DNA from: a virus
Direction: 5' to 3' (one strand)
Length of the DNA stretch: 26,485 nt
IMG/VR virus record: IMGVR_UViG_3300037796_000177
Location: 1 to 26,485 of that record
Position 1 is the stretch's first letter, and every line of letters starts with the position of its first letter. Below the pieces are notes generated by a model. It worked only from the letters and a program-made list of their open reading frames with translations, searched no databases and was not told the DNA's origin. Of this stretch, positions 4,505 through 21,391 are shown piece after piece. The position numbers were made by a program, and so were the translations under genes.

Positions 4505-5257
4505 TTATAAATTTTCTAAATCTTTTTTGTCGATAACATAAATCACATCAGCATTTTTACCAGAATGTAGTCTATATGTGTTCCCATCAAAAGAAGGTAC
4601 AATCCCCATTTCCCAGAGGTCTATACAACATTGAAAAGGATTAAATCCTTCTTTATGTTCTACATACCCCCAATTTTTTAAATCAAAAAAAGAAGAGAAA
4701 TAAGCCCATACCGAATCAAGGACTGAAGCAAAGACCAAATCAGGGACTGAAGAAAAGACCGAATTATTGACTAAAGAAAAGACCGAATTATTGACTGAAG
4801 CAAAGACCGAATTATTGACTGAATCCAAGATCAACTTATTAGCCTTATTGACTAAAGCAAAGACCGAATTCCATTCTTTTAAAAGACTGATGATTTCTTT
4901 TGAAACTCTTTTCTTTTTACAATCCTCAAAAGGATGTATAATTGGTTTAATAATTAACTCAGGAATAATAGTTTTAAAATCAAGATTATTAACAAACCTT
5001 TCAGCATGTTCTGAATCATTTTTTGTGTTAATCTGATCTACTGAAAACCTTTTAGTCAAAGGATCATATTCAAACTTATTAAATTTATCTTCAACATTAT
5101 TTCCTTTTGCTATTTTACCTTCCTTTTGATAAAAATCAATTATAGAACTATGGGAATCTGTTCTCCATGAACTATTTCTTATCTGTTTTCTCTGTTCTGC
5201 ATCAAAGTAAAAATATTTACCTCGACCATTACTCACGAAACTAAAAAATTTACACAT
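4505..5257 (-). CDS. Repeat-containing phage protein with NSVF-type 8-residue repeats
   Basis: A 250-residue protein of unknown function. The N-terminal domain (MCKFFSFVSNGRGKYFYFDA onward) and the segment with PELIIKPIIHPFEDC resemble a hypothetical phage/bacterial family that I recall with DSVWDSVRDSV-like repeats. Residues about 128-185 contain tandem 8-residue units of the form NSVFASVN / NSVFSLVN. The C-terminal domain includes NPFQCCIDLWEMGIVPSFDG and a predicted beta-rich end. The periodicity would place Val/Phe on one face, a solenoid-like or amphipathic structure. The start at ATG 5257 has GAGG about 8 nt upstream. The gene contains no CCGG, unlike most of its neighbours. Confidence 0.7.
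   Translation of the reverse strand: MCKFFSFVSNGRGKYFYFDAEQRKQIRNSSWRTDSHSSIIDFYQKEGKIAKGNNVEDKFNKFEYDPLTKRFSVDQINTKNDSEHAERFVNNLDFKTIIPELIIKPIIHPFEDCKKKRVSKEIISLLKEWNSVFALVNKANKLILDSVNNSVFASVNNSVFSLVNNSVFSSVPDLVFASVLDSVWAYFSSFFDLKNWGYVEHKEGFNPFQCCIDLWEMGIVPSFDGNTYRLHSGKNADVIYVIDKKDLENL
4709..4876 (-). repeat. 24-bp tandem repeats encoding an 8-residue motif
   Basis: Copies of a 24-bp unit beginning GACCGAATTATTGACT (+ strand) start at 4757, 4781 and 4805, with diverged units on both sides (around 4709, 4733 and 4862). The period is a multiple of three, so copy-number changes would keep the reading frame. It encodes the NSVF repeats of the surrounding gene. Confidence 0.75.
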
Positions 5258-8634: not shown

Positions 8635-9078
8635 ATGAGATTATGGCATTATAAATTACTGCCTTACCTTCCCCGGCAACAGCTATTGGGCCAGCATCGG
8701 GAGTGCGCAGCTCTCCGGGGAAAGGGTTGGGGCAAGAAGCATGCAACCGTCAATTATGTGTTTCGTTATTCTTATGAATGTTTATTTGAGTACCATTTAA
8801 AAGTAATAGAGGAAATGAAAAACCGCAATTATTTTCCGGATCCGGTTTGGGAGCGGTTTGAGTATAGGGGGAAAAATTCTCCGGAACTCCGAAGGGAATA
8901 CAACCCGAGAACCCGGAGGTGGTTTCCTTACCCGGAACATGATACCAATTATCTTAAATTATGCATACAAAATTTAAATAATAAAATTCAAAATGCTCCT
9001 GTAGAAAAGTATAACCGATCAGAAGTGTATAAATTTATTGAATACAAAAAGGAGATATTCAATGCCAGCAGGCTATAA
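8635..9078 (+). CDS. T4 endonuclease V-like (Pyr_excise) protein
   Basis: 147 residues resembling the pyrimidine-dimer glycosylase family. MRLWHYKLLPYLPRQQLLGQ is followed by HREC at 21-24 and GKKHATVNYVF at about 33-43. T4 endonuclease V uses Glu23 and an N-terminal amine; here Glu falls at exactly residue 23 within the equivalent H-R-E, but residue 2 is Arg rather than Thr, so the chemistry may differ. Many bacterial homologues of this MRLWH type are annotated only as conserved hypothetical. The start at ATG 8635 has AAGGA about 8 nt upstream. It is the first gene of the rightward block and overlaps the helicase gene by 17 nt. The likely role is excision of UV damage, at moderate confidence. 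Confidence 0.7.
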   Translation: MRLWHYKLLPYLPRQQLLGQHRECAALRGKGWGKKHATVNYVFRYSYECLFEYHLKVIEEMKNRNYFPDPVWERFEYRGKNSPELRREYNPRTRRWFPYPEHDTNYLKLCIQNLNNKIQNAPVEKYNRSEVYKFIEYKKEIFNASRL

Positions 9079-10654: not shown

Positions 10655-11260
10655 ATGCTGCCGTTTCCAAATAAAAAATATCAAATAATTTATGCAGACC
10701 CCCCGTGGAGCTATAGAGACAAAGCACTTGCTGGCAATCGTGGTGCTGGATGTAAATATCAAACTCAAGAAAAAGAATGGATAGACAACTTACCTGTTTC
10801 AGATATAGCAGAAAAAGACTGTGTTCTTTTCTTGTGGGTTACAATGCCAAAATTAAATGAGTGTTGGCAACTAATAGAAAAATGGGGTTTTGAATATAAA
10901 ACAGTTGCTTTTACTTGGGTAAAAAGAAACAAAAAAAGCAATACTTGGTTTTGGGGTATGGGTAGTTGGACAAGGGCAAACGCTGAATTATGCTTAATTG
11001 CAACTAAAGGGAAACCAAAAAGAATAAATGCCGGTGTGCATTCCGTAATAGACACACCAATAGAAAGACACAGTAAAAAACCCGATGAAGCGAAAAGGAG
11101 GATTGTTGAGTTGGTAGGAAATGTACCGAGAATAGAATTATTTGCAAGACAAAAAACAGAAGGTTGGGATGTATGGGGAAATGAGATTATCGATTATTTT
11201 CCCAAAGAGGGAATATCAAAAACGGAAAATGTGTTTTTAAAAAAGGGCTTTTCAATATGA
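10655..11260 (+). CDS. MT-A70-family adenine methyltransferase
   Basis: 201 residues with the MT-A70 catalytic motif DPPW at 15-18 within IIYADPPWSYRDK, a central VLFLWVTMPKL strand, ATKGKPKR, and RIELFARQKTEGWDVWGNE near the end. This is the typical phage MT-A70 architecture, predicted to transfer methyl groups to adenine N6 in DNA. No restriction partner is present, so self-protection or regulation is likely. It contains a single CCGG over about 600 bp while both neighbours have several per kb, and codon choice looks more AT-rich. It therefore seems a later insertion between the two helicase genes, yet it abuts the SNF2 gene and overlaps the next one by ATGA. Confidence 0.9.
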   Translation: MLPFPNKKYQIIYADPPWSYRDKALAGNRGAGCKYQTQEKEWIDNLPVSDIAEKDCVLFLWVTMPKLNECWQLIEKWGFEYKTVAFTWVKRNKKSNTWFWGMGSWTRANAELCLIATKGKPKRINAGVHSVIDTPIERHSKKPDEAKRRIVELVGNVPRIELFARQKTEGWDVWGNEIIDYFPKEGISKTENVFLKKGFSI

Positions 11261-12666
11261 TTAACCGTACCAAAATAGAACTCTCGGAGGAAAACCGGAT
11301 TCTGTCTCATTTAATAGCTTCCACTGATTTTCTCTCTCAACTACGCCCCATAGTAGATCCTCAACTTTTTAAAAGTACGATGGCACAACAAATCTCTTCT
11401 TGGGTATTAGAATTTTATGATCAGTTTGAATCTGCTCCGAACAAAGCCATTCAAGACCTTTACGTGAAAAAGCGGAAGGAAATTCGAGATGAAGAGGACA
11501 CGGAATTGATAGCCAAGTACCTTACTAACCTCTCGAAAGATTGGGAACAGGCGAAAATAACCAATATAAATTACACTGTCAAGTCGGCTATTCAATATTT
11601 TAAAATTCGATCCTTAGAAAAATTGAAAGATAATATTGAATACGCTATCAATCAAGGCAACTCCGCTCTCGGAGAAAAATATATATCACAATTTTCTAAA
11701 ATTGAAAAACCTTCTGGAACTGGGATTGACTTATTGAAAGACAACCAATTGATTTCTGCCGCTTTTTCTGAACGCAATGAATTTCTTTTTCGGTTCCCCG
11801 GAGCACTTGGAGACGTGTTTGGGGATTTTTCCCGGGGGGATTTTCTTGCTTGTATGATGCCTGCTAAAAGGGGAAAAACTTATTTTATGATTGATGCTTG
11901 TAATAGGGCGGCAATGATGGGATTGAAAGTTGCTTGGTTCTCTCTTGAGATGACCCGTGCTCCCGTGCTTAGAAGGCAGTGGCAGTGTATACAGGGATTG
12001 CCGCTGAAAGGGGGAACCATTGAAATGCCCTGCTTTACGGAATACAAGAACGGAAAATTTAAAATCGGTATGAAAAAAGTAAAAAAGAAGGCACTTCCCA
12101 CCGATCAGGAGACTATCCGAAAAGAACAAAAAAAATATAAAAGGGCTTTGAAGTCTGGGCAAATCAAAACTGTAATTTTTCCGGCGAATGAAGCAACCAC
12201 TGGGGATGTGGAAAACACCTTGGCTAATTGGGAGTATTATGAAAACTTTGTGCCTGACGTTATTATTACTGACTATGCGGATTTATTTAAAATTGAGGAT
12301 AGGGATTACAGGCATGGTATCGATAATATTTGGAAAACACACCGGGCGTGGGCTCAAAAATATGATTGTATGGTTATTACCGGGAGTCAAACCGACCGAA
12401 AAAGTCAAGAAGGTGACGTGAAGAAAACCTCTGCCGCTGAAGATATTCGTAAACTCAATCACGTCACCCATATGATAACTAAGCAACAAAACAAATGGGA
12501 AAAGTCTGAAGGATATAGCCGGATGGAGTGCTTGGTACAAAGAGAAGGCAAACAATACCCGGGATCTGCTTTTGTTTTGGAGTGTCTTGATATTGGTAGA
12601 CCCTATATTGATAGCAAAAAAGACTTGGAAGTTGTCGTTGAGAAAAAAGTAAAAAATACAGATTGA
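11257..12666 (+). CDS. DnaB-like replicative helicase
   Basis: A 469-residue RecA-fold helicase. The N-terminal helical part (1-150) fits the DnaB N-domain and linker. Walker A is divergent: MPAKRGKT at 201-208, with Met where the first Gly of GxxxxGKT is expected. FSLEMTRAPVLRR at 228-240 is the DnaB H1a-type motif. Walker B VIITDYADL is at 335-343. VITGSQTDRK supplies the sensor Gln. An insertion rich in Lys (about 262-305) is unusual. It should unwind the fork with the primase at 3496-4392. The start at ATG 11257 overlaps the upstream stop by 4 nt. Confidence 0.85.
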   Translation: MINRTKIELSEENRILSHLIASTDFLSQLRPIVDPQLFKSTMAQQISSWVLEFYDQFESAPNKAIQDLYVKKRKEIRDEEDTELIAKYLTNLSKDWEQAKITNINYTVKSAIQYFKIRSLEKLKDNIEYAINQGNSALGEKYISQFSKIEKPSGTGIDLLKDNQLISAAFSERNEFLFRFPGALGDVFGDFSRGDFLACMMPAKRGKTYFMIDACNRAAMMGLKVAWFSLEMTRAPVLRRQWQCIQGLPLKGGTIEMPCFTEYKNGKFKIGMKKVKKKALPTDQETIRKEQKKYKRALKSGQIKTVIFPANEATTGDVENTLANWEYYENFVPDVIITDYADLFKIEDRDYRHGIDNIWKTHRAWAQKYDCMVITGSQTDRKSQEGDVKKTSAAEDIRKLNHVTHMITKQQNKWEKSEGYSRMECLVQREGKQYPGSAFVLECLDIGRPYIDSKKDLEVVVEKKVKNTD

Positions 12667-12682
12667 ATTCCTATAATAAATT

Positions 12683-13732
12683 ATGAAACATTTAAAAACA
12701 ACTTTATCTATTCGTGGGGATCATTATTATTGCCCTTTGTCTTTACAAATGGACACGTATTGGAATTGCTTTACTAATTGTATTCACTGTTACCTTAGAA
12801 GAATGAACCGAACTTGGGGAACTGACTTGCGCCCGGCTGACCCGGAGGAAATCCGAAAAAAACTCACCAACGGTTTGAAAAATAAAAATCCTCAAAGCTC
12901 TTTAGCCCACGCATTGCGTCAAAAGAAAACTATCAGACTGGGGAACAAAACAGATCCCTACCAAGATGCTGACAAAGAATATAAAGTCACCCGGGAAGCC
13001 GTGCGAATTCTCCGAGATCTTAATTGGACATATTTGATTCAAAGTAAATTTATGGATAATATGAACCGTGATTTGGATTTGTTTGATCCGGCTCTCACTA
13101 CGTTCATGCCTGTGATTTCTCCGGGACTCGAAAAAGATTGGGAAATACTAGAGAGAAAAAAAACCACTCCAATTCATTCAAGATTAAAATTTATATCTGA
13201 AAGACAAAAAGAAGGTTATAATATTGGCGTCAACGGTGAACCTTTCATACCTGGATATCATACAATTGATAATTTTGAAGAAGCTCTCCGAGTATTAAAA
13301 AATTATGATATAAAATCTTACAATACCTATCATCTTCACTTTAATGATATTGTAGCAAAAAATCTTCACGAAGCCGGAATTGATATTGAGAAAATATTTT
13401 ATGCTAACCAAGATGAAAACTGGAGACCTGTTTTAAAACAACTAATTGACTTGGCTCAGAAATATGATATTGTTTTGGGATGTCCCGATTTCGTAAATTC
13501 CGGAGCCTATCAAAGTGAAGCGAATACCTGTTGTGGTATCAATGTTCCCAATCCCTGTGAATTTACTATACTGAATTGGAAAAAGAAAAAGATGAAAGGA
13601 CTTGATGATGAAGAAATTCTCCGGGAGTCTTTTGACGGTATAGGGAGTCTGGACGAAGGTAGGGAAATTCTTTGCGGAACCGATCCCAAAAGTGAATTTT
13701 ATGGATACAAAGATATTGTTTGGAGTTGGTAA
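12683..13732 (+). CDS. Radical SAM enzyme, spore-photoproduct-lyase-like (first)
   Basis: A 349-residue radical SAM protein. The 4Fe-4S cluster motif is C29-x3-C33-x2-C36 (YWNCFTNCIHCYL). IRLGNKTDPYQDADKEYKVT at 85-104 matches the SPL/Rv2578c-type 'lGtxTDPYQPxE' motif, linking it to the photoproduct-lyase-like branch. The C-terminal part has extra cysteines (C267, C283, C284, C292, C331) that could bind an auxiliary cluster. The substrate is unknown; DNA-linked thymine chemistry is a family-based inference. There is no SD before ATG 12683. A TATAAT lies 5 nt upstream, too close for a normal leader. Downstream it overlaps the 72-residue ORF by TAATG. Confidence 0.85.
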   Translation: MKHLKTTLSIRGDHYYCPLSLQMDTYWNCFTNCIHCYLRRMNRTWGTDLRPADPEEIRKKLTNGLKNKNPQSSLAHALRQKKTIRLGNKTDPYQDADKEYKVTREAVRILRDLNWTYLIQSKFMDNMNRDLDLFDPALTTFMPVISPGLEKDWEILERKKTTPIHSRLKFISERQKEGYNIGVNGEPFIPGYHTIDNFEEALRVLKNYDIKSYNTYHLHFNDIVAKNLHEAGIDIEKIFYANQDENWRPVLKQLIDLAQKYDIVLGCPDFVNSGAYQSEANTCCGINVPNPCEFTILNWKKKKMKGLDDEEILRESFDGIGSLDEGREILCGTDPKSEFYGYKDIVWSW

Positions 13733-13950
13733 TGTATAAATTATTATTGGGTGATTGTATAAAAAAACTTGAAGAATTGGAGAATGAATCTGTAGATTTT
13801 TCAACGTTTTTTTGGATTGACGCAGTTTCTAGAATTTCCGCTAAAATTAGCGGTACTGTTTTTTGCGGATCAACCGCTGATACCTTAAAAAAAAGATTGG
13901 GATTTCAACAAAAGAATTCTTATACATTTAACAAGGAATATTTTTCATGA
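13732..13950 (+). pseudogene. Methyltransferase N-terminal remnant fused to unknown sequence
   Basis: A 72-residue frame. Its first 23 residues (MYKLLLGDCIKKLEELENES followed by VDF) match the start of beta-class DNA methyltransferases just before the catalytic DPPY. At that point the sequence changes to STFFWIDAVSRI and no catalytic motif follows. The second half (KISGTVFCGSTADTLKKRLG) resembles the end of some transferases in pattern only. An internal deletion that joined two partial genes would explain it. The frame remains open and is overlapped on both sides (TAATG, ATGA), so it is still translated within the radical SAM operon and may have a new role. Confidence 0.55.
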
Positions 13951-14771
13951 TAGACTCTCCGGAAGAACTATACACTATATTAGGACACGAAGTCATAGTC
14001 AAACGAGAGGACTGTTGCGTGAATGACGATGAAAATCAGCCACCTTTCAGTAAAGTCCGGGGATTGTATTCACGGATTCAAAATTTAATAGAACTTGGGT
14101 ACACTCATTTTGGGTATACAGAATCAGCCGTGTCTATGGCTGGTTGGGGAGTAGCTTATGTCTGCGCCAAATTAGGAGTACAAGCCGTTATTTATGACCC
14201 CCAATATGTCCGTGAGGATTTCCGGGGAGCTGAAATTTTAACATTACACCGAAAAATGTGGGACAAATTCGGAGCTATAGTCAATCCGATTAAAGCCAGC
14301 ATGGTGAAAGTAAACTATAACATATGTAAAAAACACCTCGAATCAACGTATTCCAACGCAATCATGCTTCCCTTGGGTTTACCCTTTGAAGACTCAATTG
14401 AAGCCACTAGAGAACAATTAGACACTATACAGAACCTCTATAACAGTATTGTTGTTTGTGTAGGTTCCGGAACTATTACAGCCGGATTGCTGCGGGGAGA
14501 AAAAGAAAAACCGATTTATGGTGTAATGTCGAGAACTGGGAACAAAGAATTGATGCATAAAAAAATATTAAAAAAAAGTGGTTGTATTTTATTTACCGGG
14601 GAGAACTTAAAAATAATTGATGAAGGGTGGCATTATACAGAAAAAAGTAATTGGGAATGCCCTTTTCCTTCTCATCCGTACTATGATTTAAAAGCCTGGG
14701 AATGGCTTGTAAATAATATAAATAAAATTCCAAAACCCGTGTTGTTTTGGAACATTGGGAGAAAAATATGA
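13947..14771 (+). CDS. PLP-dependent enzyme, fold type II
   Basis: A 274-residue protein resembling the tryptophan-synthase-beta/ACC-deaminase superfamily. The N-terminal VKREDCCVNDDENQPPFSKV places the candidate Schiff-base lysine at K36. A substrate-side loop GYTESAVSMAGWG is at 56-68. The glycine-rich phosphate-binding loop GSGTITAGL is at about 173-181. At 274 residues it is shorter than most family members, as in other phage versions. The gene is sandwiched between two radical SAM genes with ATGA overlaps at both ends, so all three probably act in one pathway on a small molecule or on DNA bases. The substrate cannot be deduced. Confidence 0.82.
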   Translation: MIDSPEELYTILGHEVIVKREDCCVNDDENQPPFSKVRGLYSRIQNLIELGYTHFGYTESAVSMAGWGVAYVCAKLGVQAVIYDPQYVREDFRGAEILTLHRKMWDKFGAIVNPIKASMVKVNYNICKKHLESTYSNAIMLPLGLPFEDSIEATREQLDTIQNLYNSIVVCVGSGTITAGLLRGEKEKPIYGVMSRTGNKELMHKKILKKSGCILFTGENLKIIDEGWHYTEKSNWECPFPSHPYYDLKAWEWLVNNINKIPKPVLFWNIGRKI

Positions 14772-16180
14772 AAAAAGATTATTGGTATTATCGGGACTTA
14801 GTAAAAAAAGCGATCCCCCGGAGAAAATTATTGTTTAAAAATCAAGAACAATATAACATGAAGCAAAAAGGTCGGAAAAGTAATTATAAGCAGTTTAATC
14901 TAATGACTGAAGAAATGGTTAAAATGGAGAGGTTGCTGGATACGGAGAATATCAATTCGTTCGCTGAAGTTTCTCTCCGGGCTCAAAGTTGTCCGATGCC
15001 TTTCAATATAGACGTGTATGACGGATTGAAATGCCCTTATCAGTGCCGGTATTGTTTCGCTGATTATTTCCGGCATTCCCTGTATACTTCCTTTTTTGAT
15101 AATGGTTCAACTCTCGGACTCCGGAACTGTTCCATTGAAAATCATAAGGCTGGACTTGATAAGTTAATGAAAGTGAGAGGGGAAAAAGCCAAAGGGCAAA
15201 ATGAAGTTGAAAATGCCGTTCGTTTACAAATTCCTATACGGCTGGGGATTCGTTTTGAAGACTTTCCTCCGATAGAACGGAAAAGACAAGTATCATTAAA
15301 ACTTTTAGAGTATTTACGTGATGTGGAGTACCCGGTTATGATTAACACTAAATCAGAGATTCCCGGGGAGGAATCTTATGTGAAAGCACTTTCCGAAAAC
15401 AAAGCCGGAGCTGCAATTCATTTTACTTTAATTTCTAATGATGATGATTTCTTAAAAGCTATCGAACCGGGAGCACCGGCGTTTAAAAAACGTTTACAAG
15501 CTGCTAAAAATTTATCTGATGCTGGGGTGCGTGTTGTAGCAAGGATTGAGCCTTGGATGATTTTTCTTAATGACGAAAAAGAAAAAGTTGATGAATACAT
15601 TCGACAAATCAAAGAAGCCGGAATCAGACATATGACTTTTGATTCGTATTCTTATTCAGCCAACTCCAAAGGACTCGCCAGCAACTTCGAGTCAATAGGA
15701 ATTGACTTTCAAAGAATGTTTTTATTATCTTCAGATTCTCAGGGACTCTCTTCATTTTTACTCGGAAAATTTATGGAGTATTTTCAAGAGAATGGATTGA
15801 GTTGTAGTACGTTTGACCAAGGGAATGTCCCTGCGAATGACGATTGGATTTGTTGTAGTGTAGGTGACCATTTTGAAAAGTACGGATTCAATTGGGGATC
15901 CGGAGTCATAGCAATAAAATTTATTCAAAGCCGGGAGCACATAGCCACCCGGTGGAGTGATTTTGTTGAGTTTGTAGAGAGTCGTGGAGGATTTCTTTCA
16001 GATAATCTCCGCTTAGACGTTCACAAACTTTGGAACGGTGTGGGTGATGCGGCTTGGCCAATTTTTTGGGGAGCCGGAATCCATCCAGTTGGATTAGACG
16101 AACACGGAACAGTTTGGGTATACAGACCCGGAAAAGAAAATGATTTCAGAAATAAAATAATTGAAGGAGTAATTCAATGA
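14768..16180 (+). CDS. Radical SAM enzyme (second)
   Basis: 470 residues from ATG 14768. I prefer this start to the ATG at 14747 because it makes an ATGA overlap with the PLP gene and has GGGAG upstream. The cluster motif is C89-x3-C93-x2-C96 (LKCPYQCRYCFADY). The barrel includes RLGIRFEDFPPIERK, VMINTKSEI and VVARIEPWM, strands comparable with the SPL/DUF1848-like family. An N-terminal extension of about 85 residues is Lys-rich, and the C-terminal domain has a CC pair (DWICCSVGDHF). It differs from the first radical SAM gene in size and motifs, so it is not a recent duplicate. The reaction is unknown. Confidence 0.82.
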   Translation: MKKDYWYYRDLVKKAIPRRKLLFKNQEQYNMKQKGRKSNYKQFNLMTEEMVKMERLLDTENINSFAEVSLRAQSCPMPFNIDVYDGLKCPYQCRYCFADYFRHSLYTSFFDNGSTLGLRNCSIENHKAGLDKLMKVRGEKAKGQNEVENAVRLQIPIRLGIRFEDFPPIERKRQVSLKLLEYLRDVEYPVMINTKSEIPGEESYVKALSENKAGAAIHFTLISNDDDFLKAIEPGAPAFKKRLQAAKNLSDAGVRVVARIEPWMIFLNDEKEKVDEYIRQIKEAGIRHMTFDSYSYSANSKGLASNFESIGIDFQRMFLLSSDSQGLSSFLLGKFMEYFQENGLSCSTFDQGNVPANDDWICCSVGDHFEKYGFNWGSGVIAIKFIQSREHIATRWSDFVEFVESRGGFLSDNLRLDVHKLWNGVGDAAWPIFWGAGIHPVGLDEHGTVWVYRPGKENDFRNKIIEGVIQ

Positions 16181-16881
16181 TAAAAATAACAGGACAAACA
16201 GAAACTATGTTTGCACAGGCCGTAGCTCTTGCTCAATCGGGTAAAATGAAAAGTACAATACACGCTTTTGGGAATACTATCTATATTTTAAATATGGATA
16301 ATTCAATTTTGATTCGGTTTGATTCCGTTCAAAAATTTCCGGAGCCGATTTCATTTTATGCGAATGATTATGAGTCTTCCGAAATGGGAATTGAAAACGG
16401 TCAAGTGTTTTTCAATCTCTACCAGGGAGAATATGCCCGGAAAAAATATTGTAGCAAGCCCCAAGAAAATTTCACCAACGTTTCTACCCAGTGGGACAAG
16501 TTTTCTCCGAACAAGGATTCAGCAATCACATTAACCAAAGGTATTGCGGGACTCCTAGAAGATGGACTTAGTCATATTGAGTTTATAAATGGAGCTGACG
16601 GCATTAAGCTATTACAGAAAAATATATATGACGGAACCCGTGTGGAAATAAGCAAAGGTGATGGAACCCGGGGATTTATTGTTGAAAACGTCCCGGTTGA
16701 TTGTTTACCTGTGGGAATTCGTACAGCTGATTTAAAATCGCTTTTTTCTTTGGTAGATTCTTTGAATTTTTATATTCAAAAAGATAATTACATTTATTTT
16801 TCTGATCCCAATAATATTTTAACAGGAATCATTTCAACCTGTTTGTATGATGAACTTGGTTATATAGCAAAAGGCAAATAA
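16177..16881 (+). CDS. Possible sliding-clamp-like protein (two-domain)
   Basis: 234 residues, overlapping the radical SAM stop by 4 nt. The pattern of alternating strands (STIHAFGNTIYILNMDNSIL, then later GTRVEISKGDG and NYIYFSDPNNILTG) resembles a PCNA/DnaN-type processivity fold with about two domains. No exact family motif is recognised, so this is a fold-level guess. It sits about 870 bp upstream of a more convincing beta-clamp gene at 17753-18820. Alternatives are a transcription accessory clamp such as T4 gp45-type proteins, or an unrelated beta-rich protein. Confidence 0.45.
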   Translation: MIKITGQTETMFAQAVALAQSGKMKSTIHAFGNTIYILNMDNSILIRFDSVQKFPEPISFYANDYESSEMGIENGQVFFNLYQGEYARKKYCSKPQENFTNVSTQWDKFSPNKDSAITLTKGIAGLLEDGLSHIEFINGADGIKLLQKNIYDGTRVEISKGDGTRGFIVENVPVDCLPVGIRTADLKSLFSLVDSLNFYIQKDNYIYFSDPNNILTGIISTCLYDELGYIAKGK

Positions 16882-16882
16882 C

Positions 16883-17026
16883 ATGGGTGGAAAAAGCAGA
16901 AAAACAGGCAGTGTAAGTAAGAAACTAATTGACCGTATTAAGAATGGGACGTTAAATAAACCCAAGCCTAAAACAAAATCAGAAGGCTCCGGGAAAAGTA
17001 AAAAGGCGAATCCATTTGGACTATAA
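16883..17026 (+). CDS. Small Lys-rich protein, 47 residues
   Basis: ATG 16883 lies 1 nt after the previous stop. The product starts MGGKSRKTGSVSKKLIDRIK, is strongly basic, and ends KKANPFGL. The low-complexity Lys/Ser middle suggests nucleic-acid binding. The aromatic C-terminal tail is placed like a partner-docking peptide, and the gene lies between two clamp-like genes, but it does not match a standard clamp-binding motif. Its 3' end overlaps the next gene by 11 nt. It is a real-looking small gene by spacing, with function unknown. Confidence 0.5.
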   Translation: MGGKSRKTGSVSKKLIDRIKNGTLNKPKPKTKSEGSGKSKKANPFGL

Positions 17027-17756
17027 TTCTTTATTACAAAAAACAAACATACCACCAAACTTTTATTGCTCCCAAGAATATTTTACAAAAGCCGGGTGGA
17101 AAGAGGAAATCAATTCAGACGGCATTTTTGTGAAAGATGAAGAAGGGGGGCTCATGCTCCCTCCTCTGTCTTTTTCGGGGCAGATCTTATCAGGGGACTA
17201 TTATGCGGGATTCAGTAATATGAACGATGGTGATTTTTTAGATTACGAATTTATATTTGAACCCCTTCATCCAGCAATGAGTTTGGATAGAATTCCCGGG
17301 GGAGCGTATAAAACGGTACGTAAAAACATACGTAAATTTTTAGAAAATAATTACCCGCTACTGATAAAAAAGTCCGGGGAAAGTTATTTGAATATAGTTG
17401 CGGATTGGTTTGAAGAAAAAGAAGGCACTGACGTATACGACACCGAAACCTTAGTCAAGTATGTAGAAGAGCCGGAGAACGTATTGTGGTTATATTCAGG
17501 GGACGTTTTAAAAGGCGTTATCATGTACGATGTTAATCACGTTTGCGTCAATTTCCGTTATTGCTTTACTACAAGAGACTGGGGATTAAATGAATACGCC
17601 CGGTTGACGTTTTTTCAATATGTATATAAAAACTATCCAGGGAAAACAATCAATGACGGAGGAAGCCTGGACAGTCCAAGTATATATCAATTTAAAAAAA
17701 AATTGAACCCAATTAAAATCAATACAATAAACACATTACAAGGAGAGTATTTATGA
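17016..17756 (+). CDS. GNAT/DUF2156-like acyltransferase fold protein
   Basis: 246 residues. The C-terminal ~120 residues (WLYSGDVLKGVIMYDVNHV and INDGGSLDSPSIYQFKKKLN) resemble the acyltransferase half of DUF2156/lysylphosphatidylglycerol-synthase-like and GNAT proteins, where the 'NDGG ... L ... FK.K' motif closes the fold. The start is TTG 17016, overlapping the previous gene; AAGG lies about 9 nt upstream, and the first ATG in frame is about 45 codons in. It is followed by the beta clamp with an ATGA overlap. Acylation of a modified nucleotide or of a protein are possible roles. The family call is tentative. Confidence 0.5.
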   Translation: MDYNSLLQKTNIPPNFYCSQEYFTKAGWKEEINSDGIFVKDEEGGLMLPPLSFSGQILSGDYYAGFSNMNDGDFLDYEFIFEPLHPAMSLDRIPGGAYKTVRKNIRKFLENNYPLLIKKSGESYLNIVADWFEEKEGTDVYDTETLVKYVEEPENVLWLYSGDVLKGVIMYDVNHVCVNFRYCFTTRDWGLNEYARLTFFQYVYKNYPGKTINDGGSLDSPSIYQFKKKLNPIKINTINTLQGEYL

Positions 17757-18820
17757 TACTACAAAAAACAGCCCTCTTGGATACGATGAAACATTGTCTC
17801 CCAGGAGTAGAAAAAAGCAACTCACTAATTGAAGGAGCGGACACTTTTGTATTCGGACACGGTGCAATTCATTCGTATAATGACGGCATTTCTGTTTCGG
17901 CTTCCTTTGATAGTGGAGATTTAACCGGAGCCGTAAAATCAATGGATTTCTATAAACTCATTAGCAAAGTACCTGCGGAGCAAATAGAAATTACCCCGGC
18001 GGACGGTGAATGGTTATTAAAAACCGATAGCATGGAAGCTCATATCAAGTTGGTTCAATCTAAAATATCAGAGTATATTTCAGAACTACAAATCAATGAC
18101 CTGGAATGGAGTACGTTGCCGGAGGACTTCTTTGAAGGGGTTCGGCTGTGTAAGATCGGTTGTAATCACTCTATTCAGCGTGGTATATATGCGAACGGTA
18201 CGGACTTAATAAGCACCGATACTATCCGGATAAATCATTTTAAAATGTCGGCAGAAATGCCCGTGTTTTGGCTTGACGATCCGGCGGTAACTGAACTTAT
18301 GAAACTGACGGACATTAAAGAGTATTCTATTCAGCCATCCTGGGTACACTTTAAAAACGAGTCCGGAGTTATATTCAGTTGTAAGCGGAAAGCTGATAGC
18401 CAGTATCCTTTTCAACAGTTAATGTCTCACGTCACCAATCACGGCAAACAGGAATCGGATCCGGTCTACAAGTTCCCTCCGAACATAAATGAAGTTATCG
18501 ACCGGGTTTCAGTTCTTGCCGGAACTATCCGGGATGCTCTAGCCGTTCAAATGAGAATCAGCAAAGAAGCCATCACTATAGAAAGTTCTAAAGACTCTGG
18601 AAGCATAAAAGAAATTGTACCCTTTTCGGAACCTATCGAACAACTGGAAGCTGGGCAAGTTATCAATATGTGGGTGGAGCCGTCTTTCTTAATGGAAGCC
18701 AGTAAAAAAGTCGTGGGATTCTTTGTTAAAGAGCATTCCCAAGGGGAAAGAGTTCAGAAAAATATTGTATTTTTCAACGATCGTTATACCCAAATTGTTG
18801 CCACTTATATAGACGGATAA
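17753..18820 (+). CDS. Beta-type sliding clamp (DnaN-like)
   Basis: 355 residues, close to the ~366 of bacterial DnaN and consistent with three clamp domains. Supporting segments are LCKIGCNHSIQRGIYANGTD and DTIRINHF in the middle domain (the DnaN 'RGI ... V.TDG.RL' pattern) and VVGFFVKEHSQGERVQKNIV near the end. It should tether the polymerase encoded at 18833-21391, 12 nt downstream, and be loaded by the AAA+ loader at 22528-23442. The start at ATG 17753 has AAGGAG about 7 nt upstream. Sequence similarity to DnaN is weak, as usual in phages. Confidence 0.65.
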   Translation: MILQKTALLDTMKHCLPGVEKSNSLIEGADTFVFGHGAIHSYNDGISVSASFDSGDLTGAVKSMDFYKLISKVPAEQIEITPADGEWLLKTDSMEAHIKLVQSKISEYISELQINDLEWSTLPEDFFEGVRLCKIGCNHSIQRGIYANGTDLISTDTIRINHFKMSAEMPVFWLDDPAVTELMKLTDIKEYSIQPSWVHFKNESGVIFSCKRKADSQYPFQQLMSHVTNHGKQESDPVYKFPPNINEVIDRVSVLAGTIRDALAVQMRISKEAITIESSKDSGSIKEIVPFSEPIEQLEAGQVINMWVEPSFLMEASKKVVGFFVKEHSQGERVQKNIVFFNDRYTQIVATYIDG

Positions 18821-18832
18821 AAAATAATAATT

Positions 18833-21391
18833 ATGAAATTTGGTTTTTTTGATCTAGGAAATGGGGAGAACCCGAACCATGAACGCAAGAAATCTACCGT
18901 CACAAAAAAGATCGGGTGCGATGCTTGTGGGCTATATGATAATTGCGAAACTCCTTATATGAAAATAAAAGGAAAAGGGAGAAAAGGAATTTTTTTCATT
19001 GTAGAAAATCCTACTGATTCTGACGATCAAAAAAACCAATTGTTGTCAGGTTTCTCCGGGGACTTATTAAAAGAAATTTTATATGAAAATAATATAGACC
19101 TTTATGACGATTGTTATACTGTTTCCGCTATCCGATGTTTCACCGGGAAACCACAACCAAAACAAGCCGGGAATTGTAGGCATAAGCTTTTAAAAGATAT
19201 TACTGAAAAAAGCCCCAAAGTAATTATTTCACTTGGGACATTATCTATTCAGGCACTTATAGGCCATCGATTAGCCGGTAGAATTTCTGGAAGTTCTTTT
19301 AAATATGAAAATTTTTATGGAGAGCAAATCCCGGATCAAGAATTGAAAACGTACGTGTGCCCAACTTATTCTCCGGTGTTCTTAATGAAATACGATGACC
19401 CGGTTATGAGAAAACAATTCAAAGAACATGTTCAATCAGCTTTAAATAATTGCTTAACTTATGAACAATTTCCCTTATGGCAACAAACAAAAGTAAAAAT
19501 CACCACAAACGAATCCGAAGCAATCGAATTTTTAAAATCTCTTAAAAATGAAAAAAGGATTGCATTTGACTATGAAACCACTGGAATAAAACCGGACAGG
19601 GAAGGACACGAACTGGTTTGTGTTTCTATAGCTACGGAAAAAGATTGTTTTTCTTTTCCATTCTTTCAAAGCCCAGAATTTTTAAAAGAGTGGGAACAGG
19701 TAATTACTAATAAAAGGATTGGAAAAATAGCTCATAATATTGGATTCGAGAATTCCTGGACAAAACATTGCGTGGGATCTTACGTGAACCGCTGGACTTG
19801 GGATACGTGTTTGGGCCAACATATCCAAAATAATAGACAACCAACAAACTTAAAATTTACCACTTATATAAAATTTGGCATTATGGGGTATGATGAGGAA
19901 GTGGATAAATTTATAACTACTAATAAGCCGGGACAAGAGGACAATAATACGAATAATTTCAATTGTATTAACGAAGCCCCCATGGACAAACTTCTTTACT
20001 ATTGTGGGTTGGATTCTATTTTCTCCTATGAATTATATAAAATTCAAAGATCTGAATTATCTGATAAACAAAAAGAAGGTATGAAACTTTTTTTAAAAGG
20101 AGCGGAGGAGCTAAGTAAAATACATCGAACTGGTATGTGTATTTCCAGACCCCTTCTTATAAAATATTACAAAGAACTTTCCCAGGAAATCGAACAAAAA
20201 GAAAAAGATCTAAAAAAAACGAAGGATTGGAAAGCGTACGGATCCCATGATTTTAATTATAATTCTAATGATCAACTCAAAAAACTTTTATATGATATTT
20301 TAAAATTACCGAAGCCGGACGGAAAAAAAAGTGTTGATGAAAAAGCTCTCACCACTTTAAATATTCCCTTTACTAAAAAAATTCTCGAAATTAAAAAAAT
20401 CAAAAATCTCCGGGACACTTACATTGATGGGTTTCGCCGGGAAGCGGTCAAAGGCAAAATACATCCCTTTTTCAACCTATCTACGGTCAAGACTTTCCGA
20501 AGTTCCGCAAATGCCCCCAATTTTCAAAACATTCCCAAGCGGAATAAAACCATAAAAAATAAAATCCGATCTATTATCATTCCAAGACCTGGAAACAAAA
20601 TTATTGAATATGACTACAAGGGGGTAGAAGTGAGTATTGGGGCGTGCGTTCATAAAGATCCCAATATGATAACTTATATTCTTGATGAGTCTACGGATAT
20701 GCACCGGGATACGGCTATGGATTTATTTTTTAGAACGGAAAAAACGATTTTAAAAGAGGAGCGGCAAACAGCTAAAAATGGAATGGTGTTCCCGGCTTTT
20801 TATGGCTCTTCATCTTTTGTGAATAAAAAGTCCGGAGAAACAGTTGGAAATATTACCAAAGGAATTTGGGAACAACTGGGTGAAGAAACATTCCAACATC
20901 TCCGGGACAACGGCATTAAAAATATAGAGCAATTCCAAAAACATGTAGAACAGATTGAAAACGTGTTTTGGGGGGAAAGGTTTGAAGTATACTCGGAGTG
21001 GAAAAATGAAGTGTACGAACAATACAGGAAAGATGGTTATGTTGACTTGCTCTCCGGGTTCCGCTGTTATGGGCCGATGAAAAAAACTGAAGTGTGTAAT
21101 TACCCTATCCAGGGAGCCGCATTTCACTGTCTATTATGGACAGTAAACCATGTGAATGACCTTATACACAGGGTGTCCGGTCGGAGCCACCTTATTGGCC
21201 AAGTCCACGATTGTATTGTAGTAGACTGTCACCCTGATGACGAATCTGAAGTTGATAATATAATAAAAACATGGGGCACTGAAAAAATAAGAGAATATTG
21301 GGACTGGATAATTGTACCTTTAAAGATTGAAAAAGAACGTACTCAACTAAATGGTTCATGGGCAGAAATTGAAGATTGTGGGTACTTATAA
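18833..21391 (+). CDS. Family A DNA polymerase with N-terminal UDG-like domain
   Basis: An 852-residue replicative polymerase. Residues about 25-210 form a uracil-DNA-glycosylase-like domain (CDACGLYDNC at 29-38, then IVENPTD, VSAIRCF, SLGTLSIQAL), as in SPO1-type phage polymerases. The 3'-5' exonuclease has FDYETTG at 245-251, AHNIGFE at 300-306 and YYCGLDSIF at 389-397. Polymerase motif A is DYKGVEVSI (594-602). Motif B is R644-x3-K648 ending FYG at 656-658, one residue longer than in E. coli Pol I. Motif C is QVHDC at 790-794, with Cys in place of the usual Glu. The SD before ATG 18833 is weak. No 5'-3' exonuclease domain is present. Confidence 0.92.
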   Translation: MKFGFFDLGNGENPNHERKKSTVTKKIGCDACGLYDNCETPYMKIKGKGRKGIFFIVENPTDSDDQKNQLLSGFSGDLLKEILYENNIDLYDDCYTVSAIRCFTGKPQPKQAGNCRHKLLKDITEKSPKVIISLGTLSIQALIGHRLAGRISGSSFKYENFYGEQIPDQELKTYVCPTYSPVFLMKYDDPVMRKQFKEHVQSALNNCLTYEQFPLWQQTKVKITTNESEAIEFLKSLKNEKRIAFDYETTGIKPDREGHELVCVSIATEKDCFSFPFFQSPEFLKEWEQVITNKRIGKIAHNIGFENSWTKHCVGSYVNRWTWDTCLGQHIQNNRQPTNLKFTTYIKFGIMGYDEEVDKFITTNKPGQEDNNTNNFNCINEAPMDKLLYYCGLDSIFSYELYKIQRSELSDKQKEGMKLFLKGAEELSKIHRTGMCISRPLLIKYYKELSQEIEQKEKDLKKTKDWKAYGSHDFNYNSNDQLKKLLYDILKLPKPDGKKSVDEKALTTLNIPFTKKILEIKKIKNLRDTYIDGFRREAVKGKIHPFFNLSTVKTFRSSANAPNFQNIPKRNKTIKNKIRSIIIPRPGNKIIEYDYKGVEVSIGACVHKDPNMITYILDESTDMHRDTAMDLFFRTEKTILKEERQTAKNGMVFPAFYGSSSFVNKKSGETVGNITKGIWEQLGEETFQHLRDNGIKNIEQFQKHVEQIENVFWGERFEVYSEWKNEVYEQYRKDGYVDLLSGFRCYGPMKKTEVCNYPIQGAAFHCLLWTVNHVNDLIHRVSGRSHLIGQVHDCIVVDCHPDDESEVDNIIKTWGTEKIREYWDWIIVPLKIEKERTQLNGSWAEIEDCGYL

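Follow-up and report, generated by a model that had tools for sequence, protein, structure and literature searches.

A conserved phage module of two radical SAM enzymes, an additional sliding clamp and a FemX-like transferase, a candidate route to hypermodified DNA bases

The genes for two radical SAM enzymes (rSAM1 and rSAM2) and a PLP enzyme, found in the viral DNA considered here (the window, meaning the whole stretch of 26,485 nucleotides), are confirmed as real genes and as members of a bigger conserved module. This module is widespread among phages, yet undescribed. Its constant part consists of the two radical SAM enzymes, an extra sliding clamp, a microprotein and a DUF2156 transferase. 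We consider that the module probably puts an amino-acid-derived modification on the bases of newly replicated phage DNA, without the steps of 5-hydroxymethyl-dU formation, kinase and amino acid:DNA transferase. That DNA is the substrate, and which base and chemistry are involved, is what we infer. The module and its neighbours in the window are as follows.

8635-9078: pyrimidine-dimer glycosylase (Pyr_excise 7e-21)
11257..12666, + strand: DnaB-like replicative helicase, the upstream replication neighbour, kept upstream of rSAM1 in relatives
12683..13732, + strand: rSAM1, radical SAM enzyme, 349 aa, with CxxxCxxC at C29/C33/C36
13720/13732..13950, + strand: gene scar ORF, 73-76 aa, between rSAM1 and PLP and overlapping both; probable start ATG 13732
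13947..14771, + strand: PLP-dependent enzyme of fold type II, M6 gp52 homologue, with invariant K36
14768..16180, + strand: rSAM2, radical SAM enzyme, about 470 aa, with CxxxCxxC, a conserved upstream Cys and a CC pair
16177..16881, + strand: c1, two-domain sliding clamp predicted to have the T4 gp45/PCNA fold; its start overlaps the rSAM2 stop
16883..17026, + strand: MGGKSRK microprotein, 47 aa, with an invariant basic N-terminus and a variable tail
17016..17756, + strand: DUF2156 / LPG-synthase / FemX-like transferase ("GNAT"), assigned by Pfam PF09924 and a structure model
17753..18820, + strand: DnaN-like (DNA polymerase III beta) sliding clamp; its start overlaps the transferase stop, and relatives match DNA_pol3_beta
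18833..21391, + strand: UDG family 4 domain fused to a PolA-type DNA polymerase, the downstream replication neighbour

Across uncultivated phage contigs, the order of genes is rSAM1, a variable enzyme, rSAM2, the PCNA/gp45-like clamp, the microprotein, the DUF2156/FemX-like transferase and the DnaN-like clamp, with the helicase flanking the module on one side and the polymerase on the other. This order is repeated in dozens of contigs, far beyond chance. The contigs surveyed are mostly fragments, and among the dereplicated ones complete through the DnaN-like clamp, rSAM1, rSAM2, c1, the transferase and the DnaN-like clamp are each present in 39/39. A profile scan of viral contigs with rSAM1 recovered 58 loci, and a scan with the single sequence recovered zero. 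Searching annotated phages at the DNA level returned zero matches. For rSAM1, rSAM2, c1, the microprotein and the transferase, tblastn against 50,697 phage records returned none, or two to three weak partial matches. The module was found in no cultured phage of the searched collection, which would explain its having been overlooked.

An earlier note on this DNA had described two radical SAM genes on either side of a PLP gene, and this arrangement stands, with CxxxCxxC in both flanking enzymes. The start-stop overlaps that it reported hold in part, as PLP and rSAM2 overlap by ATGA, whereas rSAM1 and PLP have no direct overlap and are bridged by a remnant ORF overlapping both. Its proposed survey of co-occurrence does reveal a linked system built around the two radical SAM genes, but the PLP gene is optional, being present in 21/39 complete contigs, and was rejected as part of the constant core.

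The CxxxCxxC motif is kept in at least 95% of 52 rSAM1 and 40 rSAM2 sequences. The rSAM1 family additionally carries invariant C17, C267, C283 and C284 (95%-conserved columns, 52 family members). The start of rSAM2 is ATG 14768, at the PLP stop, and not the TTG at 14747 that had been listed; in some phages the gene is interrupted by an intein. Both enzymes give weak matches to the Radical_SAM, PA0069 and Rv2578c models, and searches of solved structures by sequence with rSAM1 and rSAM2 yielded chance matches only.

The PLP enzyme belongs to fold type II, having a PALP domain and a Schiff-base lysine. Its ORF matches PALP weakly, at 3.4e-6 and below the curated cut-off, and phrog_7093 at 7e-45; the family profile aligns with threonine dehydratase at 4.8e-6, placing the invariant lysine at the FK-RG motif. 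In other contigs its place is taken by an aldo-keto reductase, by methyltransferases, by an FAD oxidoreductase or by DUF362. The aldo-keto reductase occurs in 1/21 contigs with PLP versus 9/18 without it (Fisher p 0.002, a value that ignores the relatedness of the contigs). The small ORF preceding PLP joins, in frame, an N-terminal piece of an N6/N4 DNA methyltransferase (residues 6-26) to a C-terminal piece of a second GNAT (residues 26-68). Its local alignment score is 93 against the GNAT2 of contig L069, compared with 49 or less in 200 shuffles, and 54 against the methyltransferase, compared with 41 in shuffles; L069 retains the intact order rSAM1-N6MT-GNAT2-PLP. A reading of 13720-13950 as the start of a methyltransferase was dropped, since the alignments show a fusion scar.

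A "clamp-like" gene had been noted earlier, and this proved right twice over, for the DnaN-type clamp at 17753-18820 and for c1 at 16177-16881. The identity of c1 as a clamp had been doubted, its profile giving no alignment to the DnaN-like clamp, and the structure model overturned this doubt. The AlphaFold2 model (pLDDT 85.1) matches PCNA in Foldseek at E about 4e-8 to 5e-8 and T4 gp45 in VIA-align at Z 15.1, which gives c1 the gp45/PCNA clamp fold on predicted structure. Every c1 locus with a left flank has rSAM2 upstream. A gp45/PCNA-type clamp tied to rSAM2, together with the location between helicase and polymerase, indicates DNA. However, c1 may serve replication alone, joined to the module by gene order only.

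The gene for the 47-aa microprotein was overlooked in the first reading. Its product is 42-73 aa long across contigs and is found in all 43 contigs having the clamp and transferase, and a DNA scan of 2.9 million viral contigs gave 69 loci, every one adjoining core genes. A hydrophobic LF-like pair is present in 31/41 of the tails, against a shuffle mean of 9.0 and a maximum of 16.

The gene described as "GNAT-like" is real, but its product is better described as DUF2156/LPG-synthase-like. PF09924 matched 3/8 of its relatives (best 1.5e-4), and the AlphaFold2 model (pLDDT 84.7) has 2hqy, MprF, Sbb17 and FemX as its best matches in Foldseek and VIA-align. The VIA-align Z is 18.8 for the DUF2156 protein 2hqy, 14.6 for MprF, 13.1 for Sbb17 and 12.3 for FemX, with ordinary acetyltransferases next at about 10. 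Fold and family profile thus both place it with DUF2156. Judged from the model, the nearest solved relatives of known function are aminoacyl-tRNA-dependent transferases, and aminoacyl-tRNA is plausibly the source of the amino acyl group.

Among the closest known systems is the thymidine hypermodification of phage M6, whose DNA contains 5-(2-aminoethyl)dU (PMC6449724). In M6-like cassettes, a radical SAM and a PLP enzyme lie beside kinase and pyrophosphorylase-like genes (PMC9476957). The PLP enzyme of the window shares 36% identity over 98% coverage with M6 gp52, falls in the same tree and belongs to the gp52 family. We take M6 gp52 to be a decarboxylase, and gp53 presumably to be an isomerase. 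The PLP enzymes of three module contigs (L008, L158 and L159) branch inside the clade of M6 context, in two places, so the PLP enzyme has been exchanged between the two systems. Alignment of rSAM1 with M6 gp53 reaches an hhalign probability of 95-97%, the two being separate families with general radical SAM similarity contributing, and rSAM1 appears to be remotely homologous to gp53.

The earlier note had found the hallmark kinase and pyrophosphorylase genes missing, and the wider search agrees, as the hallmark genes are absent from the 26-kb fragment and from 29 related contigs. Each search carried a positive M6 control. The 5-hmdU DNA kinase (PF18748) was detected in none of 9 records, the helical domain PF18723 (HMUDK) in none of 21, M6 gp55 as a protein query in none of 9, and the amino acid:DNA transferase (PF18724) in 0/30 records from fragmentary contigs. 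The 29 contigs in which the three hallmark families are absent total about 1.7 Mb, several being 60-172 kb long; as they are fragments, any single absence is weak. A search for a thymidylate-synthase homologue or DNA-base kinase elsewhere had been suggested: the window has no thymidylate synthase, and the kinase was not found. The thymidylate-synthase-family pyrimidine hydroxymethylase is absent from the window and from most related contigs, thymidylate synthase being limited among relatives to G008, G016 and G023 (broken).

In the mechanism that we propose, the dedicated gp45/PCNA-like clamp would tether the enzymes to new DNA, with the microprotein perhaps as an adaptor. One radical SAM enzyme would then activate the base. 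Its likeliest site is the methyl of thymine, since the M6 counterparts of two of the module's enzymes work on the side chain of that base. The DUF2156/FemX-like transferase would stand in for the hallmark transferase and give an amino acyl group whose plausible source is aminoacyl-tRNA. Rearrangement of the adduct would fall to the other radical SAM enzyme, a role already proposed for M6 gp53. The PLP enzyme could finish the side chain here, via decarboxylation or a related alpha-amino-acid reaction; elsewhere the finisher may be an aldo-keto reductase, an FAD oxidoreductase, a methyltransferase or a DUF362 protein. Analogy suggests both thymine as the target and which radical SAM step comes first. 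Only tentatively, and at less than even chance, do we suggest the fuller picture of a new class of DNA-modification machine in phages, in which a modification-only clamp would move along new DNA with an aminoacyl-tRNA-dependent transferase and the radical SAM enzymes on board, the microprotein acting as adaptor. Amino acids would be joined directly to an ordinary base, needing neither a 5-hydroxymethyl precursor nor a kinase, and the product would afterwards be varied by interchangeable enzymes.

The earlier note left the choice between a new DNA-base modification route and photoproduct repair. A homologue of M6 gp52 and an apparent remote one of gp53, without the hallmark genes, speak for modification, and repair of the SPL type is disfavoured. 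On that account, one or both radical SAM enzymes would be SPL-like, led by the clamp to UV lesions in phage DNA and reversing them there. The location in a replication block, the pyrimidine-dimer glycosylase gene in the window and weak matches to SPL models (PF20903, E 0.003; TIGR03886, E 0.008; TIGR04070, E 0.013) are in keeping with it. Yet these matches, at 14.5-16.8 bits, lie far under the SPL-family cut-offs of 27-437, the PA0069/Rv2578c models outscore them, and the glycosylase was undetected in the surveyed relatives. Repair would also leave unexplained the homology with M6 hypermodification enzymes and the swapping of PLP, aldo-keto reductase, FAD oxidoreductase and methyltransferase, and we regard it as improbable. 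A full M6-type pathway with kinase and transferase genes in unsequenced parts of the genomes is very improbable: the PLP family in common with M6, the apparent kinship of the radical SAM enzymes and the fragmentary contigs would allow it, but none of the three hallmark families was seen in the related contigs, and these genes are adjacent in M6-type contigs.

Two further readings place the chemistry on another substrate. The MGGKSRK microprotein could be a RiPP-like substrate that is modified, or on which a small molecule is built; its constant presence in the module context, its place beside an aminoacyl-tRNA-transferase-like gene, and its conserved N-terminus and variable C-terminus, like a leader and core, would suit this. 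Against it, the LF-like pair suggests a clamp-binding motif over a modified core, enzymes of the PLP and radical SAM families are found in other phages within clusters for DNA modification, and a dedicated sliding clamp would have no role, so that we consider a peptide pathway unlikely. The enzymes might instead alter dNTPs before incorporation, or tRNA. The pool is altered first in many hypermodified phages, tRNA modification is common among radical SAM enzymes, and in G008 the thymidylate synthase adjoins the transferase gene. Most contigs lack thymidylate synthase, however, the contigs scanned had no dedicated tRNA genes close to the module, and the extra clamp best suits DNA; we hold this reading to be improbable. 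Neither the missing thymidylate synthase nor the absent dedicated tRNAs decides between these substrates.

If modification of DNA bases by the module is true, phages possess a second, chemically distinct route for placing amino-acid-derived groups on DNA, skipping the hydroxymethyl and kinase steps, and DNA modification would be coupled to a dedicated sliding clamp. The new DNA side chains would be relevant to restriction evasion and to DNA-labelling tools. MGGKSRK offers a simple genetic marker for finding hundreds of such phages.

Compared with known systems, c1 shares the two-domain clamp fold of T4 gp45 (Z 15.1), but comes beside a DnaN-like clamp in one operon, 3' of a radical SAM gene. 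The transferase resembles FemX, MprF and DUF2156 transferases in predicted fold and domain length (the Z of 14.6 being for the LPG synthetase C-terminal domain), and differs in having about 10% identity and a short, free-standing form. With SPL and SPL-like proteins (PA0069, Rv2578c; COG1533 in general) the radical SAM enzymes share a common subgroup by weak profile scores, and an intein is recorded by NCBIfam in Rv2578c relatives, as seen in some phage rSAM2; in contrast, those of the module lie far under the family cut-offs, have other conserved cysteines and sit in a multi-enzyme operon. Cassettes by terminase genes (L129, L146, L161) likewise hold a PLP superfamily member and an rSAM2-like enzyme, but comprise only a ParB-like protein, PLP and one radical SAM enzyme, with no clamp, transferase or microprotein seen. 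The M6/Yuavirus cluster for 5-(2-aminoethyl)-dU shares the gp52 PLP family, has in gp53 an apparent remote relative of rSAM1, adjoins replication genes and varies in its finishing enzymes. The 5-hmdU kinase, the HMUDK helical domain and the amino acid:DNA transferase of that cluster are missing from the module, as is, usually, a thymidylate-synthase homologue. The module adds another radical SAM enzyme, its dedicated gp45/PCNA-like clamp, the DUF2156-like transferase and the MGGKSRK microprotein.

The three genes that the earlier note had read as a radical SAM/PLP/radical SAM operon are all present in the window, and they lead into a longer module with two clamps, a microprotein and a transferase.

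Genes of the module in the window
12683-13732, rSAM1, radical SAM enzyme
13947-14771, PLP enzyme
14768-16180, rSAM2, second radical SAM enzyme; ATG 14768 is the better start and overlaps the PLP stop as ATGA
16177 (start), c1, predicted clamp; start within the rSAM2 stop
16883-17026, MGGKSRK microprotein, between c1 and the transferase
17753 (start), DnaN-like clamp; start within the transferase stop

The start-stop overlaps claimed for the three-gene operon hold between PLP and rSAM2, but rSAM1 and PLP are separated by an open reading frame of 73-76 aa. Residues 6-26 of this frame resemble the start of an N6/N4 DNA methyltransferase (score 54; 200 shuffles did not exceed 41). A second GNAT-type gene is matched at its end by residues 26-68 (score 93; shuffles did not exceed 49). 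Judged by these alignments, the frame is a scar. In a related viral locus, L069, the order is rSAM1, methyltransferase, GNAT2 and PLP, with methyltransferase and GNAT2 both intact; given this order and the scar matches, the ancestor of the window phage probably had both genes and lost them by one deletion.

The window, an entire IMG/VR virus record, shows no end repeats over its 26,485 bases and is probably a fragment. It also carries a PolA polymerase fused to a UDG family 4 domain (18833-21391), which are two separate genes in several relatives, and a pyrimidine-dimer glycosylase gene (8635-9078; Pyr_excise, T4 endonuclease V family, 7e-21), which was not detected in the surveyed relatives and is therefore probably a separate acquisition. 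In the minus-strand gene block there are five dispersed repeats of about 44 nt (114-157, 1458-1501, 1681-1724, 1993-2036 and 2359-2402; 66-100%), two of them inside 99-nt repeats at 94% identity, a family which is possibly a regulatory or mobile element. A tandem repeat of a 24-nt unit (4686-4840, within ORF 4505-5257) repeatedly encodes SVNNSVF-like units.

A profile search with rSAM1 turned up 58 viral-contig loci, plus a single one in a metagenome-assembled genome of Thioalkalivibrio. After removal of duplicates, rSAM1 and rSAM2 occur together in 51 contigs, and the DnaN-like clamp gene is reached in 39; in this set, anchored on rSAM1 and hence selected for it, rSAM1, rSAM2, c1, the transferase and the DnaN-like clamp are present in 39/39, in identical order. 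Co-occurrence of the three genes thus holds for the radical SAM pair, but PLP is found in only 21 of the 39. Because rSAM1 anchors select for rSAM1, a second search was made with c1, and rSAM2 accompanies every c1 locus having upstream sequence (counted as loci, not independent phages, with the loci of one contig recurring). The gene set is a conserved module, of which no description was found in the literature searched.

In some of the c1-found loci rSAM1 is diverged, scoring as a weak match to rSAM2, and adjoins a DUF362 protein. Modules of this kind include L187, L218 and L225, the last two with an extra protein that resembles a glycosyltransferase by eye and has no meaningful Pfam match. 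The rSAM2 proteins of several relatives bear intein-like insertions exactly at the iron-sulphur cysteine motif, either before the first cluster cysteine (L005, L006, L078, L082) or after the third (L050, L080, L087, L091), L091 having both; NCBIfam records the same for Rv2578c relatives.

The neighbours described earlier as clamp-like and GNAT-like fared differently. Two clamps are indeed encoded. c1 has no Pfam match and no alignment to the DnaN-like clamp in profile comparison; its AlphaFold2 model (pLDDT 85.1) matches PCNA (Foldseek E ~5e-8) and T4 gp45 (Z 15.1), and on this modelled fold it is a sliding clamp. The "GNAT" model (pLDDT 84.7), however, has the DUF2156 protein 2hqy as its closest neighbour (Z 18.8). 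Next come lipid aminoacyl transferases of the MprF type (Z ~14), then Sbb17, a peptide synthase that depends on aminoacyl-tRNA (13.1), and FemX (12.3), with acetyltransferases below all of these (~10). Together with Pfam PF09924, which matches 3/8 members, these predicted fold neighbours suggest an aminoacyl donor.

The microprotein (42-73 aa) has a nearly invariant start, GG-K-S-R-K-x-G, and its pattern is matched in 41/43 contigs carrying c1 and the transferase; translations of the other two (L005, L006) show MAGGKSRK. In L057 the first match lies far upstream, but the peptide is also found at the usual site of this contig (L112). A DNA pattern for this start, run over 2.9 million viral contigs, gave 69 loci, with a core module gene in 69/69. 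The microprotein itself matches nothing in Pfam, PHROGs or annotated phages. An LF-type hydrophobic pair, which resembles a clamp-binding motif, occurs in 31/41 tails (shuffle mean 9.0, maximum 16; exploratory, as the motif was picked after viewing the tails).

In PLP-less contigs, the slot beside rSAM1 is often occupied by an aldo-keto reductase (PF00248, 5e-30), Methyltransf_25-type methyltransferases or an FAD oxidoreductase (DAO). The aldo-keto reductase is present in 1/21 PLP-plus vs 9/18 PLP-minus contigs (Fisher p 0.002, which ignores shared descent and is one of several comparisons). None of the tabulated variable enzymes is present in six PLP-less contigs, bar a DNA methyltransferase in one, so the core probably does not require these enzymes to act. 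Exchangeable finishing enzymes on a constant core look like a combinatorial side-chain pathway. Elsewhere, L123, L125, L127 and L128 place PLP beside methyltransferase-like genes and a DnaN-like clamp, with radical SAM genes absent and some neighbours resembling PAPS-reductase and ParB by eye.

Among annotated sequences, the PLP protein has its closest relatives in the PLP genes of M6-like Pseudomonas phages, with 36% identity at 98% coverage. In M6, gp52 (PLP) adjoins gp51 amino acid:DNA transferase, gp53 radical SAM, gp54 5-hmdU kinase and gp55 helical domain, a gene set published as a thymidine-hypermodification cassette (PMC9476957), and M6 DNA contains 5-(2-aminoethyl)dU (PMC6449724). The alignment of rSAM1 with gp53 spans the barrel and extends to a distal cysteine. 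In a tree of 75 PLP sequences, a single group (99/96) holds most of the PLPs from the new context, but the PLPs of L008, L158 and L159 fall inside the M6-context clade at two places; PLP genes have therefore moved between the module and the M6-type cluster, and such movement supports the idea of one substrate type common to both. The family has a third context in L129, L146 and L161, compact ParB-like, PLP and rSAM2-like cassettes near terminase-like genes.

Gene content, folds and homologies are established by this analysis, whereas DNA as the substrate, the base, the amino acid and the step order are inferred for a proposed pathway. The clamp and microprotein would keep the radical SAM enzymes and transferase on new DNA, an amino acid would be attached to a base, the thymine methyl being the probable site, and the variable enzyme would complete the side chain. 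For the PLP enzyme the predicted substrate is an alpha-amino acid, with decarboxylation, as in the case of M6 gp52, as a candidate reaction.

Photoproduct repair by SPL-like radical SAM enzymes is the weaker of the two ideas in the earlier note: spore photoproduct lyase models score far under the cut-off, and repair leaves the finishing enzymes unexplained. Base modification has a serious rival in a peptide pathway that would use the microprotein as its substrate, since this protein is constant in the module and found nowhere else in the contigs scanned. Less likely is a route at the nucleotide or RNA level, and so is a hidden M6-type pathway. The missing hallmark genes remarked on earlier are indeed absent in searches over ~1.7 Mb of viral contigs: PF18724 from 30 records, PF18723 from 21 and PF18748 from 9, M6 being positive each time, and the gp55 protein from 9 (a search without positive control). 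Just a few of the contigs have a thymidylate synthase. Fragmentary contigs weaken each single hallmark absence, yet leave the overall pattern standing. Hypermodification without the M6 hallmark genes would, if true, be a new class; set against the M6-type pathway, the module stands outside it by hallmark genes, yet behaves like a hypermodification system.
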